This document shows, in pieces, positions 48,556-56,112 of a stretch of 64,000 nt of DNA. Position 1 is the first letter of the stretch. Every line of letters begins with the position of its first letter. The position numbers and the translations under genes were made by a program. The stretch is from Lachnospiraceae bacterium MA2020. GTDB lineage: Bacteria; Bacillota; Clostridia; Lachnospirales; Lachnospiraceae. The stretch spans positions 1 through 64,000 of the forward strand of contig JQKK01000013.1 of assembly GCA_000746015.1 (NCBI GenBank), in the 5' to 3' direction. Below the pieces are notes generated by a model. That model was given only the letters and a program-made list of their open reading frames with translations, was not told the DNA's origin and did not search any database.

Positions 48556-48783
48556 ATGGCAAATGTAGAGGAATTATTAAAGCAGGTACTTTCAAACGAT
48601 GAGCTTAAGAACTCACTTATCAAGGCAGCATCAAGCAAGGAAAACCTTGAAGCTTTTCTTAAAGAGAAGGGCATCAATGTTGACGTTGATGAGGCTATGA
48701 AATTTGTCAAGGAAAATGCACTTAAGAGCGGCGTATCAGTAGATTCGATCGCAAAGATGGCGAGTGGATTCCTGGCTAAGTAA
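48556..48783 (+). CDS. Small Nif11-like protein
   Basis: A 75-residue protein with a very strong AAAGGAGGG ribosome binding site. Residues 1-52 resemble the Nif11 leader domain (LLKQVLSNDELKNSLIKAASSKENLEAFLKEKGINVDVDEAMKFV). Nif11 domains occur in leader peptides of some modified natural products and in non-leader proteins; the C-terminal GVSVDSIAKMASGFLAK has no Cys, so a lanthipeptide core is unlikely. No modification enzyme or exporter lies nearby. The family match is from memory, so moderate confidence. Confidence 0.55.
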   Translation: MANVEELLKQVLSNDELKNSLIKAASSKENLEAFLKEKGINVDVDEAMKFVKENALKSGVSVDSIAKMASGFLAK

Positions 48784-48849: not shown

Positions 48850-49653
48850 ATGATAAATGAAGTTATTATAGATGATATTTTTGGTATATCAGTACTTCTT
48901 ACTGAGCAGAAATACAGGCCTGACCTTGACAGATATCGCTCCCTTAGTATTTATCGGGGCATGCCTGATGCCAGTTTTAAGATAATCACGTCATTAAATA
49001 GGATATGCAAGGATAAAAAGAAATTTCTTGAGCCGGTAATACTTTCTACTTTTACCAAATATGCCGTTTTAGAGGACCCTTCGATTGAGGAAAGTGTGTG
49101 GCGTCAGATGATAATGGGACAGCATCACGGTCTCCCTACGCGCCTTTTAGACTGGTCTTTTTCGCCTCTTATCAGCCTTCATTTTGCAGTTACAGAGAAC
49201 AATCTTGAAGAAATGGATGCGCACGATGCAGTCGTCTGGAGAATCGATGTTGATGAGCTTCATGAGATGCTTCCACAAAAGTATCAGGATATTATGAAAA
49301 GGGAAAAGACTACTGTGTTTTCTCTTAAAATGCTGACAGAAGCATGCTCAGGACTTGATGAATATGACAGAGATATGGGCGACAGATCACTGCTTATTGT
49401 CGAGCCGCCATCTATAGAGCAGCGCATTATAAATCAGTACTCATTCTTTTCAATTGTGCCTAGTGATTTTCCTGATATGGAAGAATTTCTTGAGAAAAAT
49501 ACCGTCAAGACGACCAAGTTTGTAATAAAGAAAGAGATCCGCTGGCAGATACGAGATCTTTTAGATAAGCTGAACATCAGCGAAAGAGTGGTATATCCGG
49601 GATTAGACGGACTTTCGAGATGGCTTGCAAGGCATTATTATGTCAAAGAGTGA
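48850..49653 (+). CDS. FRG domain protein
   Basis: A 267-residue protein. The FRG (named after its conserved residues) domain is clear: SIYRGMPDASFKIITSLNRI, then EESVWRQMIMGQHHGLPTRLLDWSFSPLISLHFAV, the family's core signature QHHGLPTRLLDW. The function of this domain is not established; it is found in defence-island and phage-associated settings as well as alone. It lies after the Nif11-like gene and is followed by a long hairpin. AGGGGGAG is its ribosome binding site. Confidence 0.85.
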   Translation: MINEVIIDDIFGISVLLTEQKYRPDLDRYRSLSIYRGMPDASFKIITSLNRICKDKKKFLEPVILSTFTKYAVLEDPSIEESVWRQMIMGQHHGLPTRLLDWSFSPLISLHFAVTENNLEEMDAHDAVVWRIDVDELHEMLPQKYQDIMKREKTTVFSLKMLTEACSGLDEYDRDMGDRSLLIVEPPSIEQRIINQYSFFSIVPSDFPDMEEFLEKNTVKTTKFVIKKEIRWQIRDLLDKLNISERVVYPGLDGLSRWLARHYYVKE

Positions 49654-49709
49654 CGTGAGGTTTAGGCATAGGAAAATAAATAGATGAATTAAAGGAAATG
49701 TTAATGATA

Positions 49710-49753
49710 GAGTCCATGACTGTCAAAGTGATAAATTTGATAGTCGTGGGCTC
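49710..49753 (+). terminator. Long hairpin after the FRG gene
   Basis: An 18-bp stem (49710-49727 with 49736-49753; three G-U pairs) and an 8-nt loop. It is followed by TTGTG, a weak U-tract, so termination may be partial. It immediately precedes the LytTR-type repeats. Confidence 0.5.
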
Positions 49754-49760
49754 TTGTGCT

Positions 49761-49791
49761 ATTTACAACGAAAAAATAGCTATTCACAACA
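49761..49791 (+). promoter_or_regulatory. LytTR-type direct repeat upstream of the response regulator
   Basis: ATTTACAACG (49761-49770) and ATTCACAACA (49782-49791): direct repeats 21 bp apart. The same pair and spacing recur before two downstream transcription units (51995 and 54640). Direct repeats about two helical turns apart are the usual operator form for LytTR regulators such as AgrA. Here it would allow autoregulation. Confidence 0.6.
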
Positions 49792-49847
49792 TAAATATTT
49801 ATAATTGTTTGAACTTAGATGAAAATTAAAGCAGAGGTGATGTTTAG

Positions 49848-50585
49848 ATGAAACTGGCTATCTGTGATGATGAAAAAATAATAAGAGATCTGGTAGCGGA
49901 ATGTGCTCATGAAATTTCTAACGATTTAGAAATTGAGTTTTTTGAAAATACAAATGAAATTATAGAACCTTATTTTTATGCTGATATATTGATCCTTGAT
50001 ATACACATGGAAGGGATAGACGGCATGGAAGCGGCAAGAATACTTCGCAGAAATGGAAGTAACGCTATTATTATATTTTTGACAGCACTTGAGGAATACG
50101 TTTTTAGCGCATTTGATGTAGGAGCTTTTCAGTATATTGTAAAACCTTTTGAAAAAAAGAAGCTTAAAGGAATTATTGCGGATGCAATTGAGCAGGTTGA
50201 GGATAAAAATAGGATAGAACAGCTACTGCGTGACAGTAAGAATAAAATTTCAGATAAATCGTTTATCATAAAGAACGGTAAGAATACGACCAGAGTGAAC
50301 TTATCTGAAATACTATATGCTGAAGTTTTTAATCGTAAGGTGATTATTCATATGAAAGATGGTGTACCGATTGAATATTACGGAAAGTTAAAGGAATTGG
50401 AGAAAACTGTTGGAAAAGATTTTTTTCGAGTTCATAGGGCATATGTTATTAATCTTGCATATGTGAAAAATTATGATGCTAAAAATGTAAATGTGGCAGG
50501 GGAAATATTACCTGTTGCAAGAGGTAAATATCCGGAACTTGTAAAGGCGTATCTTTCTTATCACACCAAGAGGCTATGCTTATGA
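49848..50585 (+). CDS. LytTR family response regulator (AgrA-like)
   Basis: A 245-residue two-component regulator. The receiver domain has the acidic pair in CDDEK, phosphoacceptor Asp51 (ILILDIHMEG) and the conserved Lys in YIVKPFEKKK. The C-terminal LytTR DNA-binding domain (residues about 145-240) has SFIIKNGKNTTRVNLSEILYAEVFNRKVIIHMKDG and FFRVHRAYVINLAYVK, both characteristic. It overlaps the kinase gene that follows. Sites it likely binds lie upstream of itself and of the two unknown operons downstream. No agrB, agrD or peptide pheromone gene is nearby. Confidence 0.92.
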   Translation: MKLAICDDEKIIRDLVAECAHEISNDLEIEFFENTNEIIEPYFYADILILDIHMEGIDGMEAARILRRNGSNAIIIFLTALEEYVFSAFDVGAFQYIVKPFEKKKLKGIIADAIEQVEDKNRIEQLLRDSKNKISDKSFIIKNGKNTTRVNLSEILYAEVFNRKVIIHMKDGVPIEYYGKLKELEKTVGKDFFRVHRAYVINLAYVKNYDAKNVNVAGEILPVARGKYPELVKAYLSYHTKRLCL

Positions 50586-51991
50586 TGGACTTTATTATTA
50601 AGAATTTTGATACCTTCTCTAAGCTGTATATGGGGGCAACTATTGAAATTGTGTTTGCGGTTACGGCACTGCTGTATTCATACTGGCTAAGGCCATTTAC
50701 ACAAAAGCATAGGGCTTCCTATATCGCAGGTTTTTTCTATTGGATAGTTGAGGTTATAGGCAATCATGTAGATATAGTTACCCCTATAGATACCCTGTGT
50801 AAATTTGCAGGGATAATAATTATAGTGTACGTTGCATGGCTTATAGATGAGAAAAGAAACCTAGTTCAAAAATTTTTTCTCAGTATAGTATTTACACTTA
50901 CAAGTTGGGTAACACAGGAACTGTTATCTGAAATCGGATTTTATGAACGGGATTTCATATTCCAATACGACATTTTCATAAGTGATACGACAATAATTAT
51001 CATGGAGTTTGTGATATGGAATATCATACAGTATGGTTTGATGCTTTTACTTCTGTATTTGGCGGTAAGGCTTTTACATAAGGTATATAAGAATAAATCA
51101 GACGAATTATCGTGGAGAGAGTTCGTGATGCTGATGATGCCTTCGGGGTGTCTGCTGCTGGTAAAACCTATAATCCGAGCATATTTTCGTCTCTGGATGG
51201 ATGGTATAGCAAATGGGAGCATAAAGGCAAATATCCCCGGAAGTGTCTATAGGATATTGTTCTGCATTTTTTCGTATCTTTCAGTTTTGATAATTGTTAA
51301 GTTATATCAGGAAATAAAAGAAAATCAGTATTGCACTTTTGCAGATCGAGCTTTGGAGAGTCAGATTGAGGATACTAAAAGCCATGTGCAGAGAGTTGAA
51401 GAGATCTATGAGCAGATGCGAGCCATGAGACATGACATGCGAAATCATATGACTGTGATAGAAAGGCTGGCAGAAACAGGTAATAAAGAAGAACTGACCG
51501 AGTATATAGGCGAATGGCAGAGTAGGTTTGAGGCGATACAGCCCAAAATAAAGACCGGAAATGCGATTATAGATGTAATTCTCTCAGAGTTTGCCGACAG
51601 ATGTAAACAGGAGAATATAGTCTTCGAGAGTCAGTTTATTTATCCTGATGGGGTAATGGATAATCCTTTCGATATGAGTGTGATCTTAAACAATGCCATC
51701 CAAAATGCAATAGAGGCTTCAAAAGAGGTTGAAGATCCGAAGATAATGCTGATATCAGCTGATATGGAAAATGGAGTTATCATAAGCGTGAAAAACAGGA
51801 TATCCGGTAAGGTAAGTCTTGGTGATGAAGGGCTACCTGTCTCAACAAAAGTTGGAGCCGGGCATGGCTATGGATTAAAGAATATCAGGAGCATCGCCCA
51901 AAGATACAAAGGTGATATAGAGATCAAGCAGGATGAGTCGGAGGAAGGAACTTTCTTCATACTGAATGTTATGATGATCGCAAAAATATAG
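50582..51991 (+). CDS. GHKL-type sensor histidine kinase (AgrC-like)
   Basis: A membrane sensor of about 470 residues. The first about 230 residues hold six or seven membrane segments; the H-box is RHDMRNHMTVIERL, with a putative phospho-His. The ATPase domain has the N-box NNAIQNAIEAS and a GHGYGLKNI G-box. This is the AgrC/NatK layout. The start is one of three close ATGs (50576, 50582, 50585); 50582 has the best spacing to AAGAGG. Input ligand unknown. Confidence 0.9.
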   Translation: MMDFIIKNFDTFSKLYMGATIEIVFAVTALLYSYWLRPFTQKHRASYIAGFFYWIVEVIGNHVDIVTPIDTLCKFAGIIIIVYVAWLIDEKRNLVQKFFLSIVFTLTSWVTQELLSEIGFYERDFIFQYDIFISDTTIIIMEFVIWNIIQYGLMLLLLYLAVRLLHKVYKNKSDELSWREFVMLMMPSGCLLLVKPIIRAYFRLWMDGIANGSIKANIPGSVYRILFCIFSYLSVLIIVKLYQEIKENQYCTFADRALESQIEDTKSHVQRVEEIYEQMRAMRHDMRNHMTVIERLAETGNKEELTEYIGEWQSRFEAIQPKIKTGNAIIDVILSEFADRCKQENIVFESQFIYPDGVMDNPFDMSVILNNAIQNAIEASKEVEDPKIMLISADMENGVIISVKNRISGKVSLGDEGLPVSTKVGAGHGYGLKNIRSIAQRYKGDIEIKQDESEEGTFFILNVMMIAKI

Positions 51992-51994
51992 ACC

Positions 51995-52093
51995 ATTCAC
52001 GACAGAAATAGTGCTGTTCAAGACATTTTGCTTAATAATCAAATTTTGCAGACGATATAAGAATAAACGAAAAGATATTTTGGCAAGGAAGCC
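51995..52093 (+). promoter_or_regulatory. Composite promoter A: LytTR repeats, sigma-28-like motif and conserved leader element
   Basis: ATTCACGACA (51995-52004) and GTTCAAGACA (52016-52025) are 21 bp apart. Then comes TAAT (52033-52036), 15 bp, ACGATAT (52052-52058), close to the Bacillus sigma-D form TAAA-N15-CCGATAT. A TATAAG at 52056 could be a sigma-A -10 instead. GGCAAGGAAGCC (52082-52093) in the leader is shared with promoter B at 54726 and can form a small hairpin exposing AAGGA, like a CsrA site. All spacings equal those of promoter B. Confidence 0.6.
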
Positions 52094-52110
52094 GGGAAAG
52101 TGAGGTGTTT

Positions 52111-52899
52111 ATGAATGGAATCGCAGGGATATCTTTTCAAGAAACTGAGTCGGGACTACGAGTACATGTTAAAAAGAGCAAGAAGAGTTTTCAATCAGGA
52201 AAACTAAAGAAAAGGTTGCCATATAATTTTAAAGCATTATCAGGGGAAATTCTGAGAGCAAAGAAATCAGGGACGGCAAGACCTCTGATAATGAAGATGA
52301 AATCCAAGCTTTCGTGGCTATATAAGCAGTTGAAAAATGGTGAATATGGAGAAAGTGAAATCATGGCGGCAATTATTCACGCTGCAACGATGGAAAAAAT
52401 AGCTAAGCGTAAGGTCAGGCATCTCGAAGAAGAGGAAGCAGCTGAAAATGGTAATTGCAAAGGAGCATTACCTGGTGAGGATGAAGAAATATATGGCAAG
52501 AGCAATCTGGAAGACAGTCTTAGGGAAAATGAGGAACTGTCCAAAGAGATTATGGATGAACTTATGGATGAGATAGCGAGGCTTGAGGAGGAACTTACAG
52601 AGGATTTGATGACAGAGCTTCAGGATATAGTTTGCTGTTCGGGTAGAGATATGTCAGAAGAAGAAATTAAGGAAATGAAACAAAGACACAGAGATGATGA
52701 AGAAAGACAGCTTACAAAGGCTGACCTTGAGTATCTTAAATCATTATTTAACAGACTTGAGCAGGAAAAGAAACAAAACTCTACAAGTGCATATAATAGT
52801 GGATACCATGAAGCAACTATTTCATATACGGTTGAATGTATTCCCGAGATTGAAATGGCAGACATTGATGTTGGAGAAACGATTGACGTTAGTGTTTAG
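52111..52899 (+). CDS. Unknown protein 1 of the LytTR-linked cluster
   Basis: A 262-residue protein, no signal peptide or membrane segment. The Lys-rich N-terminal part (KKRLPYNFKALSGEILRAKKSG...AIIHAATMEKIAKRKVRHLEEEEAAE) resembles a family I recall from Lachnospiraceae but cannot name with certainty. The middle is a long Glu-rich helical or coiled-coil stretch. The protein ends GETIDVSV, the first example of the [ST][IV]D tail shared by four genes here. ATG 52111 follows GTGAGG; a GTG at 52105 is less likely. Confidence 0.6.
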   Translation: MNGIAGISFQETESGLRVHVKKSKKSFQSGKLKKRLPYNFKALSGEILRAKKSGTARPLIMKMKSKLSWLYKQLKNGEYGESEIMAAIIHAATMEKIAKRKVRHLEEEEAAENGNCKGALPGEDEEIYGKSNLEDSLRENEELSKEIMDELMDEIARLEEELTEDLMTELQDIVCCSGRDMSEEEIKEMKQRHRDDEERQLTKADLEYLKSLFNRLEQEKKQNSTSAYNSGYHEATISYTVECIPEIEMADIDVGETIDVSV

Positions 52900-52923
52900 A
52901 TTTTATGTCAAGGAGGACAGGCT

Positions 52924-53553
52924 ATGTCGATGAATATTGATTATTTGACGAATAAAGTGGGTTATACGAGCAACGCAATGGAGGATGCGTACTCCTCGAA
53001 AAATCAGAATGTTAAAAACGATGCCTTGAAAAAAGACAATGCTGATGATAAGGATGGAGTTATCTATGATAAATCATCCGGGAAAACTGATAATTCACTA
53101 TACTCTATCAACAAGATGAGTAAGAGTGACAGGGATGCGATTGTCAGCCAGTTGAAGGCTGAAACTGAGAAACGTCAACAGCAGCTCATGGATCTTGTGC
53201 ATAAGACACTTTCAGGTCAGGCAGGCGCGTATGGCGCAGCAACAGGTGACAATGTTTGGAAGATACTAGCAAGCGGAAACTTTACAGTCGATGCTGCAAC
53301 TAAGGCTCAGGCGCAGAAAGACATAAGTGAAGACGGCTATTGGGGTGTGAAGAAAACATCCCAGAGGCTTTTTGACTTTGCAAGTGCGTTGGCTGGGGAT
53401 GATGTTGAAAAGATGAAAAAAATGCAGGCAGCAATGGAAAAGGGTTTTCAAAAGGCTACTAAGACGTGGGGCAGAGAGCTCCCTACTATATGTAAGGATA
53501 CAATAGATGCGGCCAATAAACTGTTTGAGGATTATTATGCGTCGAAAGGGTAA
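52924..53553 (+). CDS. Unknown protein 2 of the LytTR-linked cluster (DUF5610-like)
   Basis: A 209-residue protein without signal peptide. Residues 1-65 are charged and probably disordered; the C-terminal half contains DISEDGYWGVKKTSQRLFDFASALAGDD and AMEKGFQKATKTWGRELPTICKDTIDAANKLFEDYY, reminiscent of the DUF5610 pattern (from memory, low certainty). It ends in ASKG and lacks the shared C-terminal tail. Strong AGGAGG. It lies 24 bp after the first gene and is probably co-transcribed. Confidence 0.6.
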   Translation: MSMNIDYLTNKVGYTSNAMEDAYSSKNQNVKNDALKKDNADDKDGVIYDKSSGKTDNSLYSINKMSKSDRDAIVSQLKAETEKRQQQLMDLVHKTLSGQAGAYGAATGDNVWKILASGNFTVDAATKAQAQKDISEDGYWGVKKTSQRLFDFASALAGDDVEKMKKMQAAMEKGFQKATKTWGRELPTICKDTIDAANKLFEDYYASKG

Positions 53554-53615
53554 TAGTTAATTGTTTATAGTAACATTGGAAAAGGATTTCAAATTAAGCT
53601 ACGGAGGGCAAGCAC

Positions 53616-54575
53616 ATGGCAATTGATTTAACAACGCTCAATGTACCCGGAATACTGCCGCAGAAAGTCTACGACTCGTACACTCCTAATAAGACCGAAA
53701 AAAAGTTGATCAACGATAACTGGGAAGAGAAGAAAGCATCTGCGATGGATCTTATCGAACAATCAAAAAAGAACGGCTCCTATCGGGAAAGTGCATCACT
53801 TAATGGTGCAGGTGTAAGTGGAATTACTGCTGGAAAGGGCACTTATTGTAATTATTCTTTGGATGCGTTTTTCAGGGAGAAAATGCCGATCGTTTCAGAC
53901 GAAAATGATAGCTTTACCATCGGAGGAGCAATGTTTTCCAGAGAAGAGCTTGAAGAATGCCGCGCAGTCATGAGGGCTGCTGTGGATGGGATCGGATGCG
54001 GAATTGGCAAGAATACAAATATTGATTATCGAAACTATGCGGAAATGGAGATCGCTGCCGGAGGTGTAAGGGCGTATGCAAGTGAAAACCTGACAGAGAG
54101 TCAGGCGGCTGTTGTCAATAAAGCAATGCAGGAATATAACGACGCACTTATCAAACTTGAAAAAGATACATTAGAAAGAGCAGGAGCAGTCGATGTTACG
54201 GGCAGTGAAGTGTCTAAGTATTACGGTAAAGCACAGCCGATCTCTAAGGAGACGCTTGAATGGATACATGGCATGAATAAGGACTCGAAACTGAGAAGTG
54301 GAGCAGCAGCGACCGTCCAGTCAGCTACAAATGAAGACCTTATAAATAAGATCAGAGATATGTTCTCAAAGCTTGACTATTCCGATAGCTCATCAATCAA
54401 TTCACTTCTGGAAAGATATAGTGAGTATGTAACTCCAGCTAAAATGGCATTTGGAGTCAGCAACTCAGGCGGTTATCTGGCGCAGGCATTGAGCCAAGAT
54501 GCCGCAGGCTTGCAAAATCAGTTTAAGAACATGTTAAATATCATAAGATATCGCTCTATAGACTATAAAGCTTAA
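53616..54575 (+). CDS. Unknown protein 3 of the LytTR-linked cluster (DUF3879-like)
   Basis: A 319-residue protein without signal peptide or membrane segment. MAIDLTTLNVPGILPQKVYDSYTPNKTEK opens it; a central KNGSYRESASLNGAGVSG and a Gly-rich YCNYSLDAFFREKMPIV follow. It may belong to DUF3879, a clostridial family of unknown role; that assignment is tentative. The last residues are IIRYRSIDYKA, nearly identical to the end of the protein at 54753. A terminator follows it. Confidence 0.6.
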   Translation: MAIDLTTLNVPGILPQKVYDSYTPNKTEKKLINDNWEEKKASAMDLIEQSKKNGSYRESASLNGAGVSGITAGKGTYCNYSLDAFFREKMPIVSDENDSFTIGGAMFSREELEECRAVMRAAVDGIGCGIGKNTNIDYRNYAEMEIAAGGVRAYASENLTESQAAVVNKAMQEYNDALIKLEKDTLERAGAVDVTGSEVSKYYGKAQPISKETLEWIHGMNKDSKLRSGAAATVQSATNEDLINKIRDMFSKLDYSDSSSINSLLERYSEYVTPAKMAFGVSNSGGYLAQALSQDAAGLQNQFKNMLNIIRYRSIDYKA

Positions 54576-54587
54576 GAGCAAAGAAAA

Positions 54588-54629
54588 GTATTCCTGAAAG
54601 TCCTGAGTGGCTTTCGGGAATATTTTTTT
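54588..54629 (+). terminator. Terminator after the first unknown operon
   Basis: A 13-bp stem (54588-54600 with 54611-54623; two G-U pairs), a 10-nt loop and seven Ts. It separates the first three unknown genes from promoter B. Confidence 0.9.
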
Positions 54630-54639
54630 GTCCGATGCC

Positions 54640-54737
54640 ATTTACAACAGAAATGATACCGTTCGAGACATTTGGGTTAATATTTAAATTTGGCAGACGA
54701 TATAAGGATATATGAATTATGGTGCGGCAGGGAAGCC
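54640..54737 (+). promoter_or_regulatory. Composite promoter B: LytTR repeats, sigma-28-like motif and conserved leader element
   Basis: ATTTACAACA (54640-54649) and GTTCGAGACA (54661-54670) are 21 bp apart; TAAT (54678-54681), 15 bp, ACGATAT (54697-54703). GGCAGGGAAGCC (54726-54737) in the leader matches promoter A. From repeat to -10 every spacing equals that of promoter A, and the block is about 70% identical. Between this site and the stop of gene 3 there is a terminator, so this starts a second operon. Confidence 0.6.
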
Positions 54738-54752
54738 GGAAGGGAGGTACTT

Positions 54753-55307
54753 ATGGATACAAAGGCAGCCGGGCTAAGGCTATTTAATGATTATAACGGA
54801 TTAAAAAGTACCAGAGACCGATTAGACAGGCAGTCAAAGCGTGATAATAAAATTGCATTTTACGAACATCAAAAGGAAAACCTCAAGAATATGAAGACAG
54901 ACTCTCTTGAGGACATTTCTAGGAAACTGGAATTTTTGCAGAGATATGATGATGCAATCGTGGCGGCAAAGGATGAATATAATCATTCGCAAATGTTCCA
55001 TGTTATGGATGAGGCAATGGAAAGAGCCGAGAAGATCGCTGAACAGGCAGAGAAGTATGCACCTAAGACACCTGAGGAAAGACGCGAGGAAATGATTGAA
55101 GAAGCAACGGGTGTAGATAAGAATGAAGGAATACTTTCAGAAGTTATGGACGAGCTTTCCGAGATTACTGAGAGAATGTCTGAGGAAATAGTAGAAAATG
55201 CAGAAGAGATTACAGAGGAATTGAGTACACCCGAGACAATGGTTCAGGCAGATAAAGCAGAGATGAACGCAAAGCATAAGTACAGGAGCATTGATTATCG
55301 TATATAA
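54753..55307 (+). CDS. Unknown protein 4 of the LytTR-linked cluster
   Basis: A 184-residue, mainly helical, highly charged protein with no signal peptide. Residues 15-75 (RDRLDRQSKRDNKIAFYEHQKENLK...) and 95-160 suggest coiled coils. The C-terminus is KHKYRSIDYRI, matching the tail of gene 3 in YRSIDY. ATG 54753 is chosen because GGGAGG precedes it at good distance; the ATG at 54690 falls within the promoter. Family not recognised. Confidence 0.6.
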   Translation: MDTKAAGLRLFNDYNGLKSTRDRLDRQSKRDNKIAFYEHQKENLKNMKTDSLEDISRKLEFLQRYDDAIVAAKDEYNHSQMFHVMDEAMERAEKIAEQAEKYAPKTPEERREEMIEEATGVDKNEGILSEVMDELSEITERMSEEIVENAEEITEELSTPETMVQADKAEMNAKHKYRSIDYRI

Positions 55308-55346
55308 GCATAAAAGGAATTAAAGAATATCTATGGAGGATGGCTT

Positions 55347-56096
55347 ATGAACGTTATAGGTATTGATGGAAATAGTAATGGAATTCGGGCTTTTTATATG
55401 AAATCTAATGAGCCTACTGATGCTGTCAGCAAAAATATTAAAAAGCAGATCGAAGATATGCAGAAAAGATTGCAGGAGCTTGGTGAGAATACGGAGCTGT
55501 CGCTTGAGGAAAAAATGAAAAAACGTCAGGAGATACAGCAGCAAATAAGTGAACTTCAAAATCAGCTCAGGCAGCATGAGATTGAGGTCAGGAAAGAAAG
55601 TCGGCAGAAAAAAAGCTCTGCTATGGATGAGGCATTGGGCGGATACAGAAAGGATGATAAGAAAAGCAAAAATTCTAAAGGTATGTCTAGTATAGATATG
55701 CAGACCATAATCGCTGCGGATGCTGCAATGGAGCAGGCAGAGGTGGCAGGAAATGTAAGACGGGAAATGGAAGGAAGAGCCGGAGTTCTTGAGGGTGAGA
55801 TCAGGCAGGATCATGCGCGAGGTTGGAGTGTGGAAAGCAAGAAGGAGGAATTGGCGGCAATTGAGGAAAAAGCTCAAAATGCAGAAGTTTCTCAGATAAA
55901 ATCACTTTCAGATGTCAATAAAAAGCTTGAAGAAACTGCTGAGAGTGAAGATAAAGCAGATGACAAGATTGATGATGAAGATAAAGCTGCAAAGGAGTCG
56001 GAAGGCGTTTCAGCTAAAACTGGTAATAAGCAGGATATAACTACAGATAAAGGAACAAGTGACGTAGTAGGAACTAGTGTGGATATAAAGCTGTAG
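55347..56096 (+). CDS. FlxA-like family protein of the LytTR-linked cluster
   Basis: A 249-residue protein without signal peptide. Residues 27-85 (SKNIKKQIEDMQKRLQEL, then SLEEKMKKRQEIQQQISELQNQLRQ) match the FlxA-like coiled-coil pattern; E. coli flxA is a sigma-28-controlled, motility-class gene, though of unknown function. The rest is low-complexity Lys/Glu/Asp. It ends GTSVDIKL, again the [ST][IV]D-type tail. GGAGG 10 bp upstream sets the start. Supports flagellar co-regulation of the cluster. Confidence 0.65.
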   Translation: MNVIGIDGNSNGIRAFYMKSNEPTDAVSKNIKKQIEDMQKRLQELGENTELSLEEKMKKRQEIQQQISELQNQLRQHEIEVRKESRQKKSSAMDEALGGYRKDDKKSKNSKGMSSIDMQTIIAADAAMEQAEVAGNVRREMEGRAGVLEGEIRQDHARGWSVESKKEELAAIEEKAQNAEVSQIKSLSDVNKKLEETAESEDKADDKIDDEDKAAKESEGVSAKTGNKQDITTDKGTSDVVGTSVDIKL

Positions 56097-56112
56097 GTTT
56101 TAAATAGAATTG

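Follow-up and report, generated by a model that had tools for sequence, protein, structure and literature searches.

A FliK-like C-terminal pentapeptide on small, flagellum-linked proteins encoded next to a LytTR two-component system in a Lachnospiraceae bacterium

We describe a gene cluster of Lachnospiraceae bacterium MA2020 (contig JQKK01000013.1, positions 1 to 64,000; this whole stretch of 64,000 nucleotides is called the window) in which a LytTR two-component pair is followed by five genes for small proteins, A to E, four of which end in the same C-terminal linear motif. This tail has the form hydrophobic-D-hydrophobic-x-hydrophobic-COOH, often with G at the eighth position from the end. 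A, C, D and E end in TIDVSV, SIDYKA, SIDYRI and SVDIKL, YRSIDY is common to C and D, and B is tail-less. The original prediction, made from the sequence alone, had named the five genes, the four tails and the shared YRSIDY, and the sequence confirms them; the tail is a real observation and a larger one than that prediction had it, and the likeness to FliK was not part of it. The closest relative of known function is the C-terminal pentapeptide of FliK. On balance we favour the reading that the cluster encodes late flagellar accessory proteins, whose genes would be controlled by LytTR and a sigma-28-type factor and whose FliK-type tail would engage the export switch (FlhB/FlhA).

Distribution of the C-terminal tail

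The pattern [VILFM]D[YIVFMLT][KRS][AVLIM]$, which was drawn from the four tails themselves, matches 4 of the 169 open reading frames (ORFs) of at least 60 aa in the window, and these are exactly A, C, D and E. For a wider count we used 100 loci, namely the window, five paralogue or relative loci, 14 neighbourhoods of D from a search of 298 genomes of the family, and 80 loci from a scan of a genome collection with the D alignment (the best 80 of 228 relatives, from Lachnospira, Butyrivibrio, Pseudobutyrivibrio, Roseburia, Eubacterium, other Lachnospiraceae and others). After removal of proteins sharing their last 60 residues, which reduced 1555 ORFs to 1400, the strict tail is found in 138 of 1400 against 3.7 expected from the motif's internal frequency. 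Without family D, on which the choice of loci was based, 66 of 1317 ORFs carry it.

The tail is concentrated in a few families. It is present in its strict form in 72 of 83 members of D, 27/28 canonical DUF6033 proteins, 25/28 YjfB, 21/46 FlxA and 10/16 A proteins, and in just 5 of the 1181 other ORFs in the loci; in its loose form it is found in all 16 members of the A cluster. When the proteins are clustered without their last 14 residues, the counts are 27/62 for the wide DUF6033 cluster and 3/12 for C, and five more clusters have one tail each. The DUF6033, YjfB and FliK samples are each the 30 best-matching loci and not random ones; DUF6033 loci L070 and L076 and YjfB loci L161 and L174 were dropped for want of a proper ORF, and where ORFs overlapped in DUF6033 and YjfB loci the tail-bearing one was taken, which applies to the tail, promoter and blastp counts.

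With the last 14 residues removed, we found no blastp match at E<=1e-3 between families among 297 proteins of D, DUF6033, FlxA, A, C, YjfB and FliK. The motif thus ends at least five families without mutual blastp similarity, and common descent of the whole proteins is rejected as its cause. Within D, the last eight positions have an entropy of 0.5-2.3 bits, compared with 3.0-3.8 bits for the preceding 22 positions of the linker. The eighth position from the end is G in 28/28 canonical DUF6033, 25/28 YjfB, 16/16 A, 28/46 FlxA and 17/19 Lachnospiraceae FliK proteins, and Y in 77/83 of D. The counts support the earlier suggestion that the tail marks recognition and is not due to chance.

Several further ends resemble the tail. 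SSKIDTKE-like ends, closed by E, are near to its form and are perhaps a variant of it (L083:2111-2923, L037:4779-5519 and L107:7090-7866, where L numbers are our locus handles; two of them fall in one 38-member cluster). Another candidate tail protein, of 105 aa and encoded among flagellar genes (L228:6443-6760), ends in HSFDMRI. An uncharacterised G/Y/S-rich protein of 173 aa from the window's own genome (L273:1501-2022) ends in GMNIDYAA.

Likeness to FliK

Of 249 genomes from the phylum of the window, Bacillota, 208 encode a FliK domain. Among 30 FliK ORFs fetched from the phylum, 23 have the loose and 8 the strict tail, and their ends include STIDYRV and AGIDYRA, almost the same as those of D and C. 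Twenty flagellar operons of Lachnospiraceae gave 19 FliK proteins, as L228 yielded none; 12/19 have the strict tail, 14/19 the loose one and 19/19 an alternating hydrophobic pattern, with A as final residue in 18/19. FliK of the window's own genome ends in GGSLDLMA. In 74 E. coli coding sequences, from four stretches that hold most flagellar genes, the loose tail is found in fliK, flxA and flgJ, and the strict tail in fliK (GVDIFA) and flxA only.

The published findings cited here and below are taken from excerpts of the respective papers. The final five residues of FliK are important for export specificity switching, and an FlhA mutant is suppressed by fliK(A405V), which alters the C-terminal residue (PMC10965912). 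It has been proposed that this pentapeptide acts on FlhB-CCD (PMC13344023). In Caulobacter, these residues are LDIRI; once they are deleted, FliK-C, a Lon substrate, is no longer degraded, no longer affects motility and affects flagellin only mildly (PMC8545394). In Salmonella, the C-terminal region of FliK that the tail closes has been described as disordered.

FliK and the window proteins thus have one C-terminal pattern in common, for which FliK offers TIDYRV and GIDYRA from the phylum sample, GVDIFA from E. coli, SLDLMA from the own genome and LDIRI from Caulobacter. They differ in that the window proteins are smaller and lack the switch domain, as no match to PF02120 (FliK Flg_hook/T3S4) was found in A to E at E<=1. 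Two of the window promoters look sigma-28-type, compared with 1 of 25 FliK genes with such a box. A, C, D and E have the form of the FliK pentapeptide, the function of which is established in the papers for FliK alone. We speculate that accessory tails may be stronger ligands than the tail of FliK, in the manner of A405V.

Related families and flagella

E is FlxA-like, as originally predicted: it scores 59.4 bits against PF14282 with a gathering score of 26.3, which A to D do not reach. Both E and E. coli FlxA carry the tail (TIDIYV in E. coli; K-12 FlxA, b1566, ends in GTIDIYV), and they differ in length (249 versus 110 aa) and in the LytTR-linked cluster around E. E. coli flxA has a FliA-dependent promoter, and neither flagellar synthesis nor motility obviously depends on the gene (PMC4183435). 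In the phage collection, one record has FlxA.

YjfB (PF14070, putative motility protein) is present in 36 of the 249 genomes of the phylum. All 28 ORFs from 30 loci have the loose tail and 25 the strict one. YjfB shares the tail with the window proteins and differs by its size of about 60 aa; we found no homologue in the window's own genome. A published survey groups it with sigma-28 and flgV in one flagellar module (PMC11607428). The E. coli FlxA and FliK ends and the phylum-wide YjfB rule out the tail as a mark of Lachnospiraceae only.

Canonical DUF6033 (PF19498) proteins resemble the window proteins in the strict tail (27/28) and a sigma-28 box (21/28). The difference is that the window has just the tail-less relative B, while a canonical copy is located elsewhere in the genome (L018). 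About 4 kb from that gene we noted an ORF (L018:4001-4762) with a match to the flagellin N-terminus (G000:C6:175081-175386). A fold search of the DUF6033 model against the PDB gave no match at E<=0.001, and we found no paper on DUF6033 in the open-access literature. In titles, starts of abstracts and some excerpts of that literature we found nothing that connects the FliK tail with FlxA, YjfB or DUF6033.

The families follow flagella. FlhA is present in 149 of the 298 family genomes. D is present in 15, including the own genome, all with FlhA (p=2e-5), and DUF6033 in 98, of which 96 have FlhA (p=2e-36); these p-values are optimistic because the species are related. The two FlhA-less DUF6033 genomes have flagellins, and their DUF6033 proteins end in TIDYSV and RVDYTA, so that all 98 carry flagellar genes (FlhA or flagellins). 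The motility link of the original prediction is thereby supported.

Gene cluster

The genes and tails of the cluster are as follows.

49848..50585, + strand, LytTR response regulator gene (PF00072 1.6e-17, PF04397 1.4e-15)
50576..51991, + strand, GHKL sensor histidine kinase gene, AgrC/DcuS-like (PF14501 2.8e-21, PF14689 3.4e-07)
52111..52899, + strand, gene A, 262 aa, no accepted Pfam family, C-terminus TIDVSV
52882..52896, + strand, tail of A, IDVSV
52924..53553, + strand, gene B, 209 aa, DUF6033 cluster member without tail
53616..54575, + strand, gene C, 319 aa, no Pfam family, C-terminus YRSIDYKA
54558..54572, + strand, tail of C, IDYKA
54753..55307, + strand, gene D, 184 aa, helical in the model, no Pfam family, C-terminus YRSIDYRI
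55290..55304, + strand, tail of D, IDYRI
55347..56096, + strand, gene E, 249 aa, FlxA-like (PF14282 4.1e-16), C-terminus SVDIKL
56079..56093, + strand, tail of E, VDIKL

A regulator with Response_reg and LytTR domains adjoins a GHKL kinase, as in a LytTR two-component system. The kinase also matches the NCBIfam AgrC model with 1.6e-07, which is under the cut-off of that model. Two gene blocks lie 3' of this pair, A-B-C (52111-54575) and D-E (54753-56096). They are likely two transcripts, because an inverted repeat with a T-run is located between C and D and another 3' of E, both identified by eye. The start codons of A and D were likewise picked by eye, and no signal peptides were seen in A to E by this same kind of inspection. 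B itself gives no match to PF19498; its homologue at L004:2543-3388 matches with 56.4 bits, compared with a gathering score of 25. The Pfam family DUF4085 for A (24.6 bits, cut-off 24.1) is not trusted, because the homologue in L004 has no such match.

AgrA/AgrC-type systems share with the window the LytTR regulator, the GHKL kinase and direct repeats of 21-bp period, to which binding is putative; they differ in that the putative targets in the window are flagellar accessory genes with sigma-28-like boxes. AgrB and AgrD had no match among ten scanned ORFs, in which no search aimed at them was made.

B and many of its relatives (for example L095:9332-9970) have another conserved C-terminus, ANKLFEDYY-SK, in place of the tail. 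In a genus relative, a gene between the LytTR kinase and A (L008:6997-7737) has a weak FliD_C match (0.0015) and ends in SRFDGWI. At L036:10433-14289 and L041:13126-19467, a second LytTR pair is accompanied by small proteins whose N-termini are similar; these proteins mostly lack the tail (GGGLI, GMGMF), and one L041 end is HKLDYWG. Immediately 5' of the LytTR pair in the window, 48850-49653 encodes a FRG-domain protein (PF08867, 73.4 bits). Just 5' of the cluster, 48556-48783 encodes a 75-aa Nif11-like protein (PF07862 5e-4, under cut-off; TIGR03798 0.0096), possibly a leader peptide.

Promoter elements

A LytTR operator and a sigma-28-like box had both been predicted at the promoters of the cluster; candidate elements of both kinds are found there and support that prediction, its sigma-28 link included.

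49761..49790, + strand, LytTR-type direct repeat (two 9-bp repeats, 21-bp period), 5' of the response regulator gene
51995..52024, + strand, LytTR-type direct repeat, 5' of A, 7 bp before the sigma-28-like -35
52032..52058, + strand, sigma-28-like promoter TTAA-N15-GACGATAT, 5' of A-B-C, 10/12 matches
54640..54669, + strand, LytTR-type direct repeat, 5' of D, 7 bp before the sigma-28-like -35
54677..54703, + strand, sigma-28-like promoter TTAA-N15-GACGATAT, 5' of D-E, 10/12 matches

The repeat pattern RTTYRMRAC-N12-RTTYRMRAC has exactly three matches in the window (49761, 51995 and 54640) against 0.00 expected from 100 shuffles, an optimistic expectation because the pattern was derived from these three sites themselves. 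It occurs in 7 of 241 fetched loci (L001, L013, L020, L031, L045, L039 and L147). L001, L013 and L020 are the window sites again, and L031 and L045 are a single place in genome G276. This leaves three independent sites outside the window (G276, L039 and L147), each 5' of an operon with tail-family genes.

The sigma-28-like boxes were scored out of 12 against the SigD consensus TAAA-N15-GCCGATAT. The promoter of a flagellin gene of the own genome reaches 11/12, compared with 10/12 for those of A and D. A score of at least 10 is found for 21/28 canonical DUF6033 genes against 0.55 from shuffles, for 6/28 YjfB genes against 0.35, and for 1/25 genes of the FliK control, which are often operon-internal, against 0.6. 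For the other clusters we count 12/60 in wide DUF6033, 3/45 in FlxA, 1/16 in A and 3/12 in C. The shuffles, which preserve single-base composition only, understate the background in the D loci, since 47 of 1094 other ORFs there have a box against 22.4 expected.

Structure models and N-termini

In the model of D, the tail is a low-confidence coil with a mean pLDDT of 53 over the last four residues. In the model of DUF6033, pLDDT is below 50 for residues 275-294 and the tail is also a coil. Such low-confidence ends predict disorder and would fit a linear motif.

The N-terminal fraction of S, T, N, Q, G and A is 0.52 in DUF6033, 0.54 in FlxA and 0.45 in D, compared with 0.59 in 13 E. coli flagellar export substrates and 0.32 in other ORFs. 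The N-terminus of D is not low in charged residues plus L (0.38 versus 0.34), unlike those of DUF6033 and FlxA. As the composition of these N-termini resembles that of export substrates, export of the tail proteins themselves is plausible.

Discussion

We propose the following mechanism. The cluster would encode late (sigma-28-type) flagellar accessory proteins, and the LytTR two-component system, whose kinase would sense a signal, would additionally tune its expression. The FliK-type pentapeptide on four of the proteins would bind FlhB/FlhA. After hook completion, the proteins may act at the export gate, where they would hold, re-set or compete for the specificity switch, and they may themselves pass the gate. 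This proposal builds on the shared FliK-like tail, its concentration in flagellum-linked families, the promoter elements and the low model confidence at the tail. Among possible readers of the tail, the export switch (FlhB with FlhA) would be the one best supported by the FliK literature.

Several findings weigh against this proposal. The final residue is mostly A in FliK tails and mostly I, V, L or G in the accessory ones. FliK often has N, S or E in place of D, which leaves the strict tail in 8/30 of the phylum sample. The strict tail is also missing in B, in 9/12 members of the C cluster and in 35/62 of the wide DUF6033 cluster, and 53 genomes with FlhA have no DUF6033 at the threshold used. 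The boxes of A and D are imperfect, and enrichment is weak for D as a whole (8/80 compared with 47/1094 other ORFs). LytTR linkage is a feature of some tail-gene clusters and not general, since a regulator or kinase homologue is found within 6 kb of just 31 of 83 D genes, with some contigs ending sooner; of the co-occurrence that the original prediction called for, the part on flagella holds (D 15/15 with FlhA) and the part on LytTR genes does not hold in general. The tail-FlhB contact is a published model for FliK and not an assay on accessory tails, and the crosslinking to which PMC10965912 refers relates to the core domain of FliK. We looked for binding, export or phenotype data on the tail proteins and found none.

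A search of the own genome with a DNA pattern that requires G at P-7 also counts against the proposal, as it gave 34 matches compared with 50 in a control; the tail motif therefore cannot be recognised from a DNA pattern alone. By design, this pattern is blind to D, C and canonical DUF6033. Four of the 34 matches were left out as they had no locus, and among the 30 examined, 8 are in-frame ends of ORFs of at least 50 aa: FliK, A, E, the C11 paralogue, the uncharacterised 173-aa protein and three others. Four of these 8 are FliK or tail-family proteins.

The tail may instead be an export or gate-docking signal, by which exoproteins secreted via the flagellar apparatus are marked as late cargo and do not act on the switch. 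The N-termini of DUF6033, FlxA and D, which are nearer to export substrates than those of other ORFs are, agree with such a role, as do the low-confidence N-termini in the models, and FliK is itself secreted (PMC10965912, PMC13344023). The strict tail is, however, found in FliK alone among the 13 E. coli export substrates, and we regard this explanation as rather unlikely. Reading by another peptide-binding domain, be it the PDZ of a C-terminal processing or HtrA-type protease or a flagellar chaperone, seems improbable to us. Hydrophobic residues at positions 0, -2 and -4 would suit a beta-strand ligand and the tails lie in low-confidence model ends, but direct evidence was not found, and 13 of 28 canonical DUF6033 proteins end in G, which would be unusual for a PDZ ligand.

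We give equally little weight to a C-terminal degron by which Lon protease would clear leftover flagellar proteins. The dependence of FliK-C degradation on LDIRI in Caulobacter (PMC8545394) argues for it, and the own genome has Lon. Yet Lon_C is missing in 48/298 family genomes and in 24/98 DUF6033 genomes, and all 8 of these 24 that were inspected keep the tail (for example GQRFDYSI and GQTIDFKG); a general degron also would not predict so small an excess of tails in other ORFs (5/1181). Lon as the general reader is therefore disfavoured. Lon alone is not the reader, although it may still use the tail where it is present. The absence of Lon in 24/98 DUF6033 genomes compared with 24/200 others (p=0.007) is an unexplained association. 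That short hydrophobic ends merely look alike, by chance or common descent, is highly improbable. Five residues hold little information and the tail is inherited within each family, but enrichment extends across families without blastp similarity, the four matches in the window fall exactly in one cluster, and the tail of D is conserved above its flanking linker. The tail counts disfavour this explanation.

Returning to a FliK-type tail that engages the export switch, we tentatively extend this reading beyond the window. Flagellates of at least two phyla might share a class of small proteins, unrelated to one another and linked to sigma-28, in which the FliK pentapeptide is reused to address the export switch after hook completion, some of them, in this lineage, under a LytTR system for an extracellular signal. 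One shared tail ties FlxA and YjfB to FliK switching and predicts a common binding partner. For flxA, which has no obvious motility role (PMC4183435), and for YjfB, an uncharacterised protein of the flagellar module (PMC11607428), the tail suggests a testable job, at a time when work continues on how the C-terminal pentapeptide of FliK brings about export switching. If the proposal is true, a cell could retune export specificity or release exoproteins through its existing flagella.

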